Source of the DNA: Actinomycetota bacterium
GTDB taxonomy: Bacteria > Actinomycetota > Actinomycetes > Mycobacteriales > Pseudonocardiaceae
DNA length: 62,277 nt
Assembly (NCBI GenBank): GCA_021324675.1
Contig: JAJPIR010000296.1
Span: 1 to 62,277 of the forward strand
Direction of reading: 5' to 3'
Shown: positions 34,499 to 43,000 of the stretch, piece by piece
Layout: each line of letters begins with the position of its first letter
How positions within the stretch are numbered: the first letter of the stretch is position 1
Notes under the pieces: generated by a model
Told to the model about the DNA's origin: nothing
Seen by the model: the letters and a program-made list of their open reading frames with translations, nothing else
Database searches by the model: none
Translations under genes and position numbers: made by a program

Positions 34499-37400
34499 TC
34501 ATACCTCCGTCCCGGTCCGCTCAGTGATCCCGGCGCGGCGCTGGTACTCCTCGACGAGCGCGTCACGAGCACGCCCCCGCGGTCTGCGGCCCGGTTGGAT
34601 GTCGCAGGCCAGCACCTTCACTTCCTGGATGTGCACGTTGGGATCCAGTGACAGGTGCGCTAGCTCGTTGGCCGGATCCCCGGTAGCCAGGCCGCTGTGA
34701 CCCCAGTGGTAGGGCAGCCCGACGTGATGCAACCGCTTACCGGCCACGGTCATCGGCGTCATCCGCTCGGTGACCATCACCCGCGCCTCGATCGCCGCCC
34801 GCGCTGTGATGATGGTGGCCCAGCCAGCGTGTTCGAGGCGGCGCTCGGTGGCCAGTTCCGGGGAGACCTCGCAGAAAAACTCCGGTGCCAGTTCGGCGAG
34901 ATAGGGCGAAAACCGGCTCATCCCGCCCGCCGTATGGTGTTCTGCAATCCGGTAGGTGCTGCACACGTACGGGAAAACCTCCGTGCCGGGCTCGCCGCCA
35001 CTGGGCTCGAACCGGTCGTGGGGATGCACCATTGCGGTGATCTGCCGCACTGGGTTGCGCTGCTGCCGGTAGAGCAGGTTCGGGACCGGGGATTCCTGAG
35101 GCTCGTAGTGCGCCGGAAGCGGACCGTCGGTTAGCCCAGCCGGGACGAACAGCCAGGATTTGCCGTCTGCCTGCATGACGAAGGGATCCACCCCGGCCAG
35201 CGCTGCAGCTCCGGTGGCCCCGGGGGGCGGTCGGTAATGCGGTGACTTGGTTGCGGTGAAATCCGGGATGTCATGCCCGGTCCACTTCGCCTTATCCTCG
35301 TCCCACCAAACCAGTGCCTTGCGCGCGCTCCAGGGCTTGCCGTCCGGATCGGCAGAGGCGCGGTTGTACAGGATGCGGCGGTTGGCCGGCCACGCCCAGC
35401 CCCATTCTTTGGCTATCCAGTCCTGCTGTGCGGCCGGTTTGCGCCTGGCCGCCTGGTTTATCGCGTTGGAGTAGACACCGCAGTAGATCCAGCAACCGCA
35501 CGCCGTTGAGCCGTCCTCCTTGAGCTGCTCGTAGGAGCTCAACGGTGAACCTTCGGCGTCCCAGCCGTTGATTTCGGCCAGTACCGCTTCGGCCTCAGGC
35601 TCGGCGAGCGAGCCTTTGGTGGGGTAATCCCAAGTGAGGTCGAGGATCGGCCGGTCCATCTCGTCCGTACTCGCGGCGAGCTTCTCCCGGATCTTGCGCC
35701 CGAGGTGGAACGTGAACCACAGATCGCTGCGCGCGTCACCGCACGGCTCCACGGCTTGGTGATGCCACTGCAGCATCCGCTGCGTATTGGTGAAGCTGCC
35801 GTCCTTCTCGGTGTGCGCCGCGGCCGGCAGGAAGAACACTTCGGTGCCGATGTCCTCAGGCCTCAACTCGCCTGACTCGATCTCCGGGCCGTCTTTCCAC
35901 CAAGTGGCGCTCTCGATCAGCGAGAAATCTCGGACTACCAACCATTCCAGATTGGCCATGCCCAAACGCTGCATCTTGGCGTTGGCTGACCCCACAGCGG
36001 GGTTCTCCCCCAGCAGAAAATAGCCTTTGCACTCGCCGGCGAGCTGAGCCATTACGGTCTCATAGGTGGAATGGTTACCGGTGAGCCGGGGCAGGTAGTC
36101 GAAGCAGAAATCGTTGTCCGGCGTGGCCGCCGGGCCCCACCACGATTTCAGCAAGCTGACGGTGTAAGCCCGCATCTGCGCCCAGTAGCCCTTTTTTGGT
36201 GACTCCGCCTCGATGAACGAGTCGAGGTCCTCATTGGAGTGCGCATGCGGCATCGGGATGTAGCCGGGCAGCAAGTTGTACAAGGTAGGGATATCCGTGC
36301 TGCCTTGGATGGACGCGTGCCCGCGCAAGGCCATGATCCCGCCACCTGGCCGGCCGATGTTGCCCAGCAGCTGCTGCAGCACCGCGGCGGTGCGGATGTA
36401 CTGCACCCCCACGGTGTGCTGGGTCCAGCCCACGGAATAGACGAACGAGCTGGTGCGCTCCCGCCCGGAGTTCTCCGCGAGCAACTTGCAGACTTGCAGG
36501 AAGGTGTCGACCGATACGCCGCAGATGTCCGAGACCATCTCCGGGGTGTAACGGGCATAGTGCCGTTTGAGTACCTGGAACACGCACCGCGGGTGCTGCA
36601 GTGTCGGGTCGACCTGCGGAACCCCGGTAATCGCCACTCCACCTGAGCCGTGTGCCTCACCCCGTCCGGAATGGTGCACGCTGCGGCGTGACCTTCCATT
36701 CCCGCCACCGGCCTTGTCCTGATACTCCAGGTCCCGGTGGCCCGAGGCGGCCTGGACTTCCATGCCTTCGTACTGCCAGGTGTGAAAATCGTAAGAGCGC
36801 TGGTCGACGTCGAGCCCGGAAAACACGCCGTCCAGATCCTCGGTATCGCGGTAATCCTCAATCAAAATGGTCCCGGCGTTGGTGTAGGCGACCACGTATT
36901 CTCGGAAGTACTTGTCATTCGTCAGGACGTAGTTGATGATCCCGCCGAGGAAGGCAATGTCGGTGCCGGCGCGCAATGGGACGTGAATGTCGGCCAGCGC
37001 GCTGGTCCGGGTGAAACGTGGGTCGACGTGAATAACTTTCGCCCCGCGGGCCTTGGCCTCCATCACCCACTGAAATCCCACCGGGTGGCATTCGGCCATG
37101 TTCGAACCCTCGATCACGATGCAATCCGAGTTCTGTAAATCTTGCTGGAACGTGGTGGCGCCGCCGCGGCCAAAGCTGGTCCCCAGACTGGGGACAGTGG
37201 AGGAGTGTCAAATACGAGCCTGATTCTCGATCTGCACCGCCCCCAGCGCGGTGAACAGCTTCTTGATCAGGTAGTTTTCCTCGTTATCGAGGGTGGCCCC
37301 GCCCAAGCTGGCGAACCCCGTGGTGCGGCGAGTGCGCTTGCCGTCGACCTCCCACTGCCAGCCCTCTCGCCGGGTCTTGATCATCCGATCAGCGATCATG

Positions 37401-38375: not shown

Positions 38376-38900
38376 GTGAGCCAGCAGACAGGAGTCGGTG
38401 ACGCGTTGCACGCGCAGGCCGACGAGTACCGGCAAGGCGCGCCGCGACCTCTGAGCGGTTACGTGCTGGTCATGACGATCTTCGCCACGGTAGTGGGTAT
38501 CGCCGGCTTGATCGCCGCGGGGAGTGGACGCACTCTGCCTCGCCGGATCGCCCCGTATGACCTCGCCCTGATCACCGCGGGCACCCATAAACTGTCCCGC
38601 ACGATCAGCAAAGACGCTGTCACCAGCCCGCTTCGCGCCCCGTTCACTCAATATCGCGGTACCGGCGGTCCCGCCGAAGTGATGGAAGACACTCGCGACG
38701 CAGGCGCCGTGCGCCACGCCGTCGGAGAACTACTCAGCTGCCCGTTCTGCCTCGATATGTGGATAGCCACCGGTTTCATCGTCGGTCTGGTATTCGCACC
38801 GCGGTTCACCCGGGCAGTGGCGGCCACGTTCACCGCACTCGCCGGCGCAGATTTCCTTCAGCTGATCTACGCCCGCGCTCAGCAGGCCGCGCAGGGCTGA
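38376..38900 (+). CDS. DUF1360-domain membrane protein
   Basis: 174 residues. Three hydrophobic segments; LALITAGTHKLSRTISKD and the VGELLSCPFCLDMWIATGFI motif (with paired Cys) are the marks of DUF1360. Function unknown; B. subtilis sporulation protein YjcA-like members exist. GTG 38376; GAGGGGTG lies upstream and TACCCT at 38353 could be a -10. Its 3' end overlaps the convergent terC by 71 bases. Confidence 0.85.
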   Translation: MSQQTGVGDALHAQADEYRQGAPRPLSGYVLVMTIFATVVGIAGLIAAGSGRTLPRRIAPYDLALITAGTHKLSRTISKDAVTSPLRAPFTQYRGTGGPAEVMEDTRDAGAVRHAVGELLSCPFCLDMWIATGFIVGLVFAPRFTRAVAATFTALAGADFLQLIYARAQQAAQG

Positions 38901-39951
38901 ACACCCACGCGGAAACCGGCGGAGCCGGCGCCAACGCCGGCGTGCCCGCCGGAGGACTCGGGCGGCTCTGGCTACTGCCAGAACGCCGGCGTCTACTTGT
39001 CGTCAGGATGCTGGCCCCAGCCGTCACCAGCAACACGGCGACGATCACACCCAAAGACAGCTCGATCCCCACCGTTGGCACCCAGTCCAGCGGCTGGCCA
39101 TCGTTGAGCAACGGTATGGAGTTGTCGTTGAGGGCATCGAGGACCAGCTTGACGCCGATGAATCCCAGGATCACACCCAATCCGATGGACAGGTAGACCA
39201 GGCGGCTGAGCAACCCGCCGATGAGGAAGTACAGCTGCCGCAAGCCCATGAGCGCGAAGGCGTTAGCGGTGAAGACCAGGAACGGTTCCTGGGTCAGGCC
39301 GAAGATCGCCGGGATGGAGTCCAGCGCGAAGACCAGGTCGACGGACCCGATCGCGACCATCACCACGATCATGGGCGTGAACCACCGCTTGCCTGCCCGG
39401 ACGACCGTGAGACGGGATCCCTCGTAGTCGTCGGTCACCGGGATCAGCTTGCGCAGCGCGCGCAGCGCGGCATTCTCCTGGAACGTCGGATCGTGCTTAC
39501 GTTGCTGGATCTGACGCCAACCAAGGTAGATCAGCAGCGCGCCGAACAGGTAGAACACCCAGCTGAAGTGCGAGATCAGGGCTGCACCGGCAGCGATGAA
39601 CAACCCCCGCATGGCTAGTGCCAGCACGATGCCGATCAGTAACACCCGGTGTTGCTGGATAATCGGCACCCGGAACGCCGTCATGATGATGACAAAAATG
39701 AACAGGTTGTCCACCGACAGCGAGTACTCGGTGAGGTAACCCGCGGCGAACTCGACGGCGAACCCGCTACCGGAAAATAGCCATATCCCGAGCCCGAAGG
39801 CCACCGCGCACACCAGGTAGAAGATCACCCACCGGGTCGCCTCCGCGATGCCCACCGCATGTGGCTTGCGGTCCACAATGATCAAGTCGAGAGCGAAAAG
39901 AGCGCCCAGGCCAGCCACCGTGGCAAGCCATGCCCACGTGGGCACATCCAT
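38830..39951 (-). CDS. TerC-family metal transporter (Alx/MeeY type)
   Basis: 373 residues, nine helices. VEFAAGYLTEYSLSVDNLFIF and MVAIGSVDLVFALDSIPAIF carry the two conserved acidic clusters of TerC/Alx proteins, which export Mn2+ and help metallate exported proteins. The last 50 residues are a Pro/Arg/Ser-rich tail, antisense to the DUF1360 gene. ATG 39951 has GGAGGTTCGCTG upstream. That ribosome site can be masked by the leader described at 39958-40042. Confidence 0.92.
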   Translation of the reverse strand: MDVPTWAWLATVAGLGALFALDLIIVDRKPHAVGIAEATRWVIFYLVCAVAFGLGIWLFSGSGFAVEFAAGYLTEYSLSVDNLFIFVIIMTAFRVPIIQQHRVLLIGIVLALAMRGLFIAAGAALISHFSWVFYLFGALLIYLGWRQIQQRKHDPTFQENAALRALRKLIPVTDDYEGSRLTVVRAGKRWFTPMIVVMVAIGSVDLVFALDSIPAIFGLTQEPFLVFTANAFALMGLRQLYFLIGGLLSRLVYLSIGLGVILGFIGVKLVLDALNDNSIPLLNDGQPLDWVPTVGIELSLGVIVAVLLVTAGASILTTSRRRRSGSSQSRPSPPAGTPALAPAPPVSAWVFSPARPAERGRRSAEGNLRRRVR

Positions 39952-39957
39952 CAGCGA

Positions 39958-40042
39958 ACCTCCGGGCAGACGGCAAGCGTCGGGCTCCGGAGGTCTCTTC
40001 CACCGGCAAGCCGGTCGACGGCACCGGGCGCCCCTACCTCAT
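39958..40042 (-). promoter_or_regulatory. Candidate yybP-ykoY manganese riboswitch upstream of terC
   Basis: Reading the minus strand from 40042: GAGGT (40040-40036) can pair with ACCTC (39994-39990) to close a P1 helix. Between them lie GGCG/TGCC, then GTCG, a 5-bp stem ACCGG/CCGGT with loop CTTG, and GGAAGAG before the GACCTC, similar to the 3' half of the yybP-ykoY aptamer. The strand ACCTCCGG is the exact complement of CCGGAGGT (39965-39958), which is the ribosome site of terC. Metal binding that favours P1 would free the ribosome site. The 5' loop (AGGGGC) departs from the usual GGGGAGUAG, so the class call is moderate. Confidence 0.6.
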
Positions 40043-40213: not shown

Positions 40214-43000
40214 GTGCCCCGAATGGCCTCGCTGCACCAGTTAGCTAGAACGCGCCGGCAACTTGCGGTGCTCATCGCCATTGGCGCCCTGCTCGTGGCA
40301 ACCGCCGCAGCGTTGACCATCAGGATGGTTCCTGACCCTCCACCGCTGACCGCCGAGAACGTCGTCATCGACGTGCCGGGCGGCCCTGGTGTCGGCACTG
40401 CCGTGCACTTAGACGCCACGGTGTACCGGCCTGCGGCCATCCCGGCTCCCGCCGTGCTGCTCGCGCACGGCTTCGGTGGGTCGAAGGATTCCGTCAGCGC
40501 CGACGCCACCGCACTTGCCCGCCGGGGGTTCGTCGTGCTTGCCTGGACCGCCCGCGGATTCGGTGCCAGCAGTGGCCAGATCGGGCTCAACTCCCCGGAC
40601 TACGAGGTAGCCGATGCCCGGGCACTGGTGGATTGGCTGGCCAAGCGGTCGGATGTGGTGCAGGACGCGCCCGGTGATCCACGGGTCGGTGTCACCGGCG
40701 CTTCCTACGGCGGCGCGCTGGCCCTGCTGCTGGCCGGAACAGACCGGCGGGTCGACGCGCTGGCACCGGAGATCACCTGGAATGACCTGGCGCAGGCGCT
40801 GTTCCCGAACAACGCCAGCCAGGCGCCCGTGACCACCAACACCCCGGCCGCTGGCGCCTCCGCCCCGGACGGGGTGTTCAAACGGGAATGGGCGGGCTAC
40901 CTCTTCGGCATAGCGGCTGGTTCCGGCACTGGAGGACACGATCCGTGCGGCCGGTTCCGCCCGGAAGTCTGCGCCGCCTATGTACAGGCCGCGACCAGCG
41001 GCAGCCCCACCCCGGAGATCGTGGCGATGCTGCACCGGTCGTCGCCCGCCACGGTCGCTGGCAACATCACCGCACCGACCCTCCTTATCCAGGGGGAGCA
41101 GGACACCCTGTTCGGATTGGACCAGGCCGACGCGACCGCCCGCCAGCTCGCCGCCGCGGGTGCCCCGCTGAAAGTGATCTGGTACGCGGGTGGCCACGAC
41201 GGTGGCGCGCCCACCGTCGCGCTGCGGGATGAAGTAGGCGATTGGTTCGACTATCACCTGCGCGGGATCGGGACGGATCCGGGAACGGGGTTTGACTACC
41301 AGGTGCAGGCCCTATTCGGCACCCGCCGCGGCCTGCCCCCGCGCACTGTGCGCGCTGCGGCCTACCCCGGCCTGAGCAAAGACCCGGTGCAGTACCGGGA
41401 AGTGGTCCTGCACGGCTCGCCGCAGCAGGTGGTCCGCCCGCCTGGCGGCAGTCCGGCCGCGTTGAGCAGCTTGCCCGGCCTCAACGCTGCCCTGGCCGGC
41501 GGCGCACCCAGCGCGGCAGGCGCGGCAAGTACCGACGGGGTGGCGATGGACTTGCCCGGGCAGTCCGCGTTGTTCCTCAGCGATCCGCTGACCGACCCTG
41601 TGGACATCACGGGGTCGCCGAGGATCCGGTTGCGGGTAGCCGCCACGCCTAGCGCCGCAACCCCCACCGAGGACCGCGCGGTGCTGTTCGTCAAGCTCTA
41701 CGACGTGGGCCCGGACGGGCGCCGCACACTTCCCGGCGGCGCGGTGGCGCCGGTGCGGATCGGCCCTCTACCCCGCGGTGGTGCGCCCATCGAGGTCACC
41801 GTGACGCTGGCTGGGGTCGTGCGACCGGTGCAAGCTGGTCACCGGCTCGCAGTCGTCGTGACCACCACCGATCGCGGCTACGCCGTACCCTCGCAACCCG
41901 CCGGGTACACCGTGTCGCTGCCCGGTGATGCATCTCTTGCCCTACCGGTCGTGCCAGGCCAACAGGCAGCCACGCCGCTCCCGGTCGTCCAGCTCGCCGG
42001 GATCGGCGGGCTGGCAGCCGCGGTGACGGCGCTCGGGATGATCGCCGCGTTGCGCCGCCGGCACGGAGAGGAAGCCGATCCCGAGCTGGCTGAGGTGCCG
42101 CTGGTGGTGTCCGGCCTGACCAAGCGTTATCCGGGTGGTCTGACCGCCGTCGAGGAGCTGTCCTTCCGCGTCGAGCACGGGCAGGTGCTGGGTCTGCTGG
42201 GACCCAACGGGGCCGGTAAGACGACCGTGCTACGGATGCTGATGGGGCTGATCCAGCCCACCAGCGGGGAAATGCGCGCGTTCGGCCACCAGATCACCGC
42301 TGGCGCCCCGGCGCTGTCCAGGATTGGGTCATTCGTGGAGGGCCCGGGATTCCTCCCGCATTTGACCGGCATGGAGAACCTCCGGCTGTACTGGGCAGCC
42401 ACCGGGCGACCTGCCGCGGATGCCGGTACCGACGAGGCGTTGGCGATTGCCGGCTTGGGTCACGCGGTGCATCGCCGGGTCGGCACCTACAGCCAGGGCA
42501 TGCGGCAGCGCCTGGCAATCGCCCAGGCCATGCTCGGCAGGCCGGACCTGCTGGTTCTTGATGAGCCAACCAACGGCCTGGACCCGCCGCAGATCCACGC
42601 CATGCGCGAGGTGCTACGCGGCTACGCCGCTCGGGGGGCAACGGTGCTGGTGTCCAGCCACCTGCTCGCCGAAGTGGAACAGATCTGCAGCCATGTGGTG
42701 GTGATGAACCGGGGCCGGTTGGTGGGCGCCGGTACCGTCGCCGAGATCGTGGCTGGCAGCGGCACGGTGAGCTTCACGGTGGATGACCCGATGAAGGCCG
42801 CTGCGCTGCTGCGGGGGCTAGCTGGGGTCGACGTCATGGACGTTGGTCAGCGCGTGGTGCACGCACACCTCGACGGGTTGCCTCGCGCGGCCGCAGTGTC
42901 CGCGCTGGTCGCTGCGGGGATAGGAGTCGAAGGGGTGGCCACTCGCCAGGCGCTAGAGGACGCATTCCTGCAGCTGGTCGGTGAGGAGGTGGTCGAGTGA
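40214..43000 (+). CDS. Fusion of an exported alpha/beta hydrolase and an ABC transporter ATPase
   Basis: 928 residues. In order: an N-terminal membrane segment (residues about 17-37); an alpha/beta-hydrolase domain of the X-Pro dipeptidyl-peptidase/S15 type with nucleophile GASYGG (about 163), acid in QGEQDTLF (about 294) and His in GGHDGG (about 327); a beta-rich C-terminal lobe; a second membrane segment (about 593-612); then an ABC ATPase with Walker A GPNGAGKTT (about 660), signature YSQGMRQR, and Walker B LLVLDEPTNG. The topology puts the hydrolase outside and the ATPase inside. It overlaps the downstream permease by GTGA, so the two form one exporter. Substrate unknown. Confidence 0.9.
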   Translation: MPRMASLHQLARTRRQLAVLIAIGALLVATAAALTIRMVPDPPPLTAENVVIDVPGGPGVGTAVHLDATVYRPAAIPAPAVLLAHGFGGSKDSVSADATALARRGFVVLAWTARGFGASSGQIGLNSPDYEVADARALVDWLAKRSDVVQDAPGDPRVGVTGASYGGALALLLAGTDRRVDALAPEITWNDLAQALFPNNASQAPVTTNTPAAGASAPDGVFKREWAGYLFGIAAGSGTGGHDPCGRFRPEVCAAYVQAATSGSPTPEIVAMLHRSSPATVAGNITAPTLLIQGEQDTLFGLDQADATARQLAAAGAPLKVIWYAGGHDGGAPTVALRDEVGDWFDYHLRGIGTDPGTGFDYQVQALFGTRRGLPPRTVRAAAYPGLSKDPVQYREVVLHGSPQQVVRPPGGSPAALSSLPGLNAALAGGAPSAAGAASTDGVAMDLPGQSALFLSDPLTDPVDITGSPRIRLRVAATPSAATPTEDRAVLFVKLYDVGPDGRRTLPGGAVAPVRIGPLPRGGAPIEVTVTLAGVVRPVQAGHRLAVVVTTTDRGYAVPSQPAGYTVSLPGDASLALPVVPGQQAATPLPVVQLAGIGGLAAAVTALGMIAALRRRHGEEADPELAEVPLVVSGLTKRYPGGLTAVEELSFRVEHGQVLGLLGPNGAGKTTVLRMLMGLIQPTSGEMRAFGHQITAGAPALSRIGSFVEGPGFLPHLTGMENLRLYWAATGRPAADAGTDEALAIAGLGHAVHRRVGTYSQGMRQRLAIAQAMLGRPDLLVLDEPTNGLDPPQIHAMREVLRGYAARGATVLVSSHLLAEVEQICSHVVVMNRGRLVGAGTVAEIVAGSGTVSFTVDDPMKAAALLRGLAGVDVMDVGQRVVHAHLDGLPRAAAVSALVAAGIGVEGVATRQALEDAFLQLVGEEVVE

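Follow-up and report, generated by a model that had tools for sequence, protein, structure and literature searches.

Does the terC gene of this locus stand behind a manganese riboswitch and, if it does, through which pairing could the metal reach the translation start? The window (the whole analysed stretch of DNA, 62,277 nucleotides) contains a terC/alx gene of 373 aa with an ATG start on the minus strand (38830-39951). Its product belongs to the TerC/Alx family, matching TIGR03718 (R_switched_Alx) with 359.6 bits against a cut-off of 246.4, and PF03741 with 164.4 bits. The initial annotation of this region proposed a translational yybP-ykoY Mn2+ riboswitch within 39958-40042, in which one strand of the leader would pair either with GAGGU, closing the aptamer, or with the ribosome site. 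The exact eight-base complement that it reported at the ribosome site was found: ACCUCCGG (39994-39987, minus strand) is complementary to CCGGAGGU (39965-39958, minus strand), which lies 21 bases beyond ACCUCCGG and holds the GGAGG Shine-Dalgarno sequence of terC. The proposed function also appears to hold, judging by comparison with related and known leaders, but the proposed 5' anatomy does not: the closing helix, L1 and the 5' strand of L3 all lie upstream of the interval 39958-40042.

A contig search of genomes yielded 16 terC loci, 8 of them titled Pseudonocardiales, Pseudonocardiaceae or Pseudonocardia, and the other 8 from Phytoactinopolyspora, Microlunatus, Janibacter (4) and two propionibacterial assemblies. 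The motifs GGGGAGUA, UCGUCA and GAGACC occur in the same order and with the same spacing in all 16 loci. Eleven genomes of the window's genus were also searched and yielded 18 matches. Of these, L020 corresponds to the window, and L021 to L026 are letter-for-letter repeats of the leaders L004 to L008; L020 to L026 were left out of the alignment of 22 leaders (A2). The structure drawn from A2 comprises 26 pairs (P1, P1.2, P3, the first two pairs above L3, and P4). It is paired in 95.2% of cells, 12 of its pairs change on both sides, and none of 500 shuffles was as high on any of five measures. Pairing fell to 34-56% when the partner was moved by one to three bases, a control in which the structure is favoured, having been drawn from the A2 sequences themselves. 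RNAalifold, given the A2 alignment alone, predicted 22 pairs, all within the 26. Changes on both sides were seen for 23 of the 26 pairs in A3, an alignment of 92 model matches that is fitted to the model and hence biased toward its structure. A 5' anti-P1 hairpin (the P1 5' arm with UCCUUCGCG), suggested by the minimum-energy fold, was dropped: its pairing in A2 was 83.8% vs 83.7% in the shuffled alignments, and none of its pairs had two-sided changes in A2.

In the corrected anatomy, given here 5' to 3' on the minus strand, the aptamer of yybP-ykoY/alx type spans 40095-39987 (the whole covariance-model match) and the entire leader approximately 40098-39952. The switch helix P1 (UGGAGG/CCUCCG) is placed by covariation and folding; its 5' arm UGGAGG lies at 40091-40086 and its 3' arm at 39993-39988, within ACCUCCGG. 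Directly after the 5' arm comes the conserved GGAGUA (40085-40080), the 5' strand of L1, where AGGGGAGTA is invariant in 22 of 22 leaders and GGGGAGUA is also present in E. coli alx. It is followed by P1.2, formed by UUCC (40079-40076) and GGAA (40001-39998) and showing covariation, with two-sided changes at columns 19-115 in 7 of the 22 leaders. The lower helix of P3 is made by CGGCGGCG (40071-40064) and UGCCGUCG (40023-40016), with two-sided changes in 4 of 8 pairs in A2 and in 8 of 8 in the model-fitted A3. Above it, the 5' strand of L3, UCGUCAACAC (40063-40054), contains UCGUCA, invariant in 22/22; its conserved CGUCA stands opposite CGG (40026-40024), the 3' strand of L3 placed by the leader alignment. 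The invariant adenosine of UCGUCA (40058, minus strand) is a candidate metal ligand, by analogy with the adenosine described in PMC6754395. The apical part of P3 (40051-40029) is variable in length and sequence among the 22 leaders. The hairpin P4 (ACCGGC-UU-GCCGGU, 40015-40002) has two-sided changes in 5 of 6 pairs. Finally, GAGA (39997-39994) forms the 3' strand of L1. It is part of GAGACC, which is invariant in 22/22 and is also present in the X. oryzae construct of PMC6754395. L1, with GGGGAGUA on its 5' side and GAGAC on its 3' side, thus lies between P1 and a second short helix and is invariant in 22/22. Three helices meet at the junction, which has no P2 hairpin and possesses both docking legs.

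The alternative anatomy, in which GAGGU at 40040-40036 forms the 5' arm closing the aptamer, is very improbable in the light of this alignment. Five bases are indeed complementary, and a fold forced to hold the GAGGU helix reaches -55.3 kcal/mol, below the -52.6 kcal/mol of the proposed ON fold. However, GAGGU belongs to the apical portion of P3, which varies among the 22 leaders, and shows no conservation there, so the alignment contradicts such a helix, which would moreover leave the invariant AGGGGAGTA and UCGUCA outside the aptamer. The reason for dropping it was the lack of conservation; its energy is in fact slightly better than that of the ON fold. The suggestion that the 5' loop departs from the consensus and may mark a divergent subclass arose because the 5' arm had been misplaced; with UGGAGG at 40091-40086 as the better-supported partner, the core shows no divergence, its L1 and L3 being the same as in E. 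coli alx.

Membership in the known family was addressed with covariance models. RF00080 (Manganese, Rfam 15), the Rfam family meant for such RNAs, gave no match at the terC leader site at E<=10. In a search of the window's genome it likewise found nothing at this site; the three matches at other places in that genome all stayed under the cut-off, the best with E 0.19. In 15 related loci RF00080 did not match the element. Of 197 genomes of the class, none held a match that passed the cut-off and 11 held one with E<=0.1, while the cut-off was passed in 2 of 14 control genomes. This search had been set as the check by which the riboswitch proposal might fall, and there was indeed no significant score at the site; yet the silence of RF00080 is without diagnostic value, because the model also misses E. 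coli alx, the positive control (no match at E<=10). E. coli mntP was scored at 41.6 bits, under the threshold of 45. Weak matches of other Rfam families near the site (sR-tMet, snoR79, DUF3800-III, v-snoRNA-1 and PVT1_3) were far under the gathering scores and were taken as chance.

The covariance model R1, built from A2, matched E. coli alx with 30.8 bits (E 4.6e-6 in 38.7 kb), five actinobacterial sites weakly matched by RF00080 with 35.6-56.2 bits, and E. coli mntP marginally (14.8 bits, E 0.07); the window itself, which sits in the R1 training set, scored 110.3 bits. A second model, R2, was made from 14 sequences (A4) with no row from the genus search, namely the 8 of the 16 terC loci without Pseudonocardiales in their titles and 6 class-search sites from outside the window's order. 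With R2, the window scored 77.5 bits (E 1e-17), and 42.4 bits (E 8e-9) were obtained for E. coli alx; mntP was not listed at E<=10. These E-values are rough, as calibration was short and the RNAalifold structure behind R2 misplaces part of P3. Statistical homology to a reported yybP-ykoY member, E. coli alx, was therefore found with both R1 and R2.

E. coli alx, handled as a Mn-sensing yybP-ykoY member in PMC9603457, shares with the leader GGGGAGUA, a short P1.2 (ACUU/AAGU in alx), GAGACC, an L3 strand UCGUCAUUAC opposite CGG, and a TerC-family gene downstream. In alx, P3 and GAGACC are further apart and the platform before the start is longer, whereas in the window leader the P1 3' arm would itself mask the ribosome site. 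In the crystal structures of X. oryzae and L. lactis yybP-ykoY RNAs, Mn2+ lies between the docked L1 and L3, an invariable adenosine supplies N7, P1.1 is the switch helix, and the 3' strand of L1 and P1.1 reads GAGACCAGGGAU, according to PMC6754395. The Mn2+ site between L1 and L3 (predicted for the terC leader), the role of the P1.1 switch helix and (for X. oryzae) the GAGACC strand are common to these RNAs and the terC leader. The crystallized RNAs, however, have a four-way junction and act by transcription antitermination, while in the terC leader three helices meet and the platform lies at the ribosome site. Streptococcus mgtA, according to PMC9495176, has a three-way junction.

Within actinobacteria, the leader of C. 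glutamicum cg2157 (terC) is listed as RF00080 with 49.13 bits and as observed in RNA-seq (PMC3890552, Table 2), next to two more RF00080 predictions that were not observed. It is likewise an actinobacterial terC gene with a yybP-ykoY leader, of approximately 196 bases, the likeness being one of published listing. It was scored with an older Rfam release, whereas Rfam 15 passes none of the 197 genomes of the class. According to PMC3766115, yybP-ykoY is one of the motifs that occur in over 75% of the taxonomic groups surveyed there, a set that includes two actinobacterial families. The class of the terC leader site is thus already known, and an actinobacterial terC leader, that of C. glutamicum, has been in print before. 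In the open-access literature on manganese riboswitches and terC, so far as its texts were accessible, no account was found of the actinobacterial form or of direct occlusion of the ribosome site, and the phrase 'terC RNA', as the name of a published motif, was absent among the matches listed.

The pairing between the P1 3' arm and the ribosome site was examined in 106 terC leaders, after exclusion of two others that had no start codon. When paired with the ribosome region of the same leader, the arm gave a mean duplex energy of -17.4 kcal/mol, compared to -14.1 kcal/mol for swapped and -10.7 kcal/mol for shuffled regions; the own pairing beat the swapped mean in 85/106 leaders and the shuffled mean in 100/106. 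In a run test of the 16-base arm vs up to 40 bases before the start, Watson-Crick runs of at least 6 were present in 76% of the 106 leaders (7.9% of shuffled regions) and runs of at least 8 in 42% (0.5%). The leaders share ancestry, so these counts are non-independent and the p-values of the duplex test optimistic. The own pairing was no better than the swapped mean in 21/106 leaders, and the complementary run was only 4 in 16/106; in some of the poorly pairing leaders the start codon may have been misjudged. Variant arms keep the pairing, as with ACCUUCCACCA and UGGUGGAAGG in L141 or ACCUCGCA and UGCGAGGU in L146. Chance complementarity between a G+C-rich leader and a strong Shine-Dalgarno site could be invoked, since CCUCC is complementary to any GGAGG site and even swapped arms still average -14.1 kcal/mol. 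This explanation is nevertheless improbable in the extreme, given the excess of eight-base runs over shuffles just mentioned, and is contradicted by the covariation of the aptamer.

In A3, 96.7% of cells show the same P1 3' arm paired with the P1 5' arm. As one arm serves both pairings, P1 and the helix at the ribosome site are mutually exclusive, and the claim of mutually exclusive pairing stands with UGGAGG (40091-40086) as the partner. The conservation of pairing among related leaders, which had also been named as a check, is seen for the ribosome-site arm (106 leaders) and not for GAGGU (22 leaders). The duplex test and folding identify ACCUCCGG as the anti-Shine-Dalgarno arm of the OFF state and CCGGAGGU as the ribosome-site arm of the OFF hairpin. 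By nearest-neighbour energies, in a model that does not include metal and tertiary contacts, the OFF fold of the window leader has -67.8 kcal/mol vs -52.6 kcal/mol for the ON fold. This calculated preference fits a switch that needs its ligand, or folding during transcription; the gap is large, and it is no proof of either.

Taken together, the conserved covarying aptamer closed by P1, the resemblance of L1 and L3 to their counterparts in the Mn2+ class, and the conserved competition for the P1 3' arm make it very probable, from sequence comparison, that the terC leader is an alx-type yybP-ykoY Mn2+ riboswitch acting on translation as an ON-switch. The alx leader controls translation initiation. 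At high cytosolic Mn2+, the ion would bridge L1 and L3 and P1 would be kept shut, the terC ribosome site would stay free and the exporter would be made; at low Mn2+, P1 would open and its 3' arm ACCUCCGG would mask the ribosome site. The leader presents an easily testable candidate for a direct-occlusion switch. For mntP, control of translation initiation is stated in PMC9603457.

The effector and the level of control could be different from those proposed. That an aptamer of this kind responds mainly to another signal, alkaline pH or Ca2+, appears improbable. A pH of 8.5 suffices to elicit a response of the alx reporter, and this response is strongest when Mn is present as well (PMC9603457), a review reports tighter binding of Ca2+ than of Mn2+ by the Streptococcus mgtA aptamer (PMC9495176), and some sites of the element precede Na/Ca exchangers and Ion_trans channels; however, in L1 and L3 the core residues coincide with those of the Mn2+ class, and the majority of the neighbours examined are TerC or GDT1 genes. 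Action on transcription, by Rho-dependent or intrinsic termination instead of at the ribosome site, is unlikely. Joint action of Rho and the mntP riboswitch has been reported for E. coli (PMC11647493), but in the terC leaders the arm is complementary to the ribosome site itself and forms a stronger duplex with that of its own leader than with swapped sites. Furthermore, the window sequence has no U-run (T-run in the DNA) after the OFF hairpin, so intrinsic termination is unlikely in particular; Rho may still contribute to the control. Translational control by Mn2+ remains our preferred reading of the terC leader.

The transcript probably starts just before P1, as -10-like TANNNT hexamers cluster upstream of this position: among 127 distinct upstream stretches, a TANNNT starting 17-22 bases upstream of GGGAGUA occurs 62 times, compared to at most 5 at any other position, and NANNNT peaks at -18 to -21 from GGGAGUA. 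The window has only the weaker GAGACT (40107-40102, minus strand) at position -21 from GGGAGUA, a weak match to NANNNT that can tentatively be taken as a -10-like hexamer.

R1 matches at E<=0.01 were found in 115/197 genomes of the class, 100/100 of the family and 43/198 of the phylum, in surveys with strict filters that scored 20 (class), 39 (family) and 20 (phylum) candidates per genome and may let weak sites escape. The present RF00080 model thus misses an element found in 115 of the 197 sampled class genomes, as well as E. coli alx. Neighbour genes were considered for 110 of the class-search sites (in L052-L160) and were called by tblastn with seeds from the same loci; choosing the longest ORF gave wrong frames in this G+C-rich DNA and was replaced. 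At 90/110 sites a TerC gene starts an estimated 17-98 bases after the match, at one more (L107) a TerC-related gene is downstream, and at 7/110 the gene is similar to GDT1 proteins. Two of the 110 sites precede an ion channel and one a Na/Ca exchanger, and 9 had another label or none. One of these 9, L151, also has a GDT1 gene, the Pfam GDT1 family having been found in 6/6 scanned proteins, L151 included. The remaining 8 are L110 and L153 (GreA/GreB domain), L119 (PGPGW), L123 and L133 (no family), L081 (SulP-carbonic anhydrase), L087 with nothing clear downstream, and the second site of L154, too close to the end of the contig piece to judge. PMC13274385 describes both UPF0016 (TMEM165/GDT1) and TerC proteins as Mn exporters, so the element is located before Mn-exporter genes at the 90 TerC and 7 GDT1-like sites. 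Second terC copies in the genus (L030, L031, L032 and L034, the last with just 186 bases of leader on the contig) had no R1 match above 14 bits. The actinobacterial element may, as a tentative proposal with somewhat less than even chances, control a wider unrecognised Mn2+ regulon comprising TerC, GDT1 and small membrane proteins, lipoproteins, GreA/GreB-like proteins and a SulP-carbonic anhydrase. If so, those genes would encode new proteins of Mn2+ homeostasis or Mn2+ stress, and the search model points to unstudied genes possibly involved in manganese handling.

The genes behind the element outside the TerC and GDT1 families are diverse. A second element in the window's genome (L081:990-1117, plus strand, corresponding to G000:C246:28489-28616; 64.4 bits) has a CCGGAGG that precedes a 51-codon ORF (L081:1154-1309), behind which comes a 759-aa SulP transporter with a carbonic-anhydrase domain. 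One-helix small membrane proteins with a common motif like SPAQRPAILRALAELMR are encoded directly behind the element in L207 (84 residues), L208 (81 residues) and L213 (in a longer frame); the L208 protein had no Pfam or NCBIfam match. Lipoprotein-like small proteins of 131-136 residues occur downstream of an R1 match in L211, L212, L225 and L226. The L212 copy matched NF037950 ('bacteriophage spanin2 family') with 153.5 bits, a family name that is probably misleading for these lipoproteins. The GreA/GreB C-terminal domain PF01272 was identified behind the element in L110:614-1186 (plus strand, 54.6 bits) and L153:421-960 (plus strand, 48.4 bits). Ion_trans channels were found in L159 (by Pfam) and L147 (by tblastn), Na/Ca exchangers in L039 (by Pfam) and in L142, L221 and L223 (by tblastn), a PGPGW membrane protein in L119, and two related proteins without a family match in L123 and L133.

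Two other features of the window were observed. A formate dehydrogenase gene on the minus strand contains an in-frame TGA at 37208-37210 (ENQARI*HSSTVP), which we take to be the place where such enzymes carry selenocysteine; the portion downstream of the TGA (34499-37117) matches NF041513. On the plus strand, a 928-aa ORF (40214-43000), which starts divergently at approximately 115 bases from the terC leader, fuses an X-Pro dipeptidyl-peptidase-like hydrolase (S15) to an ABC-transporter ATPase.
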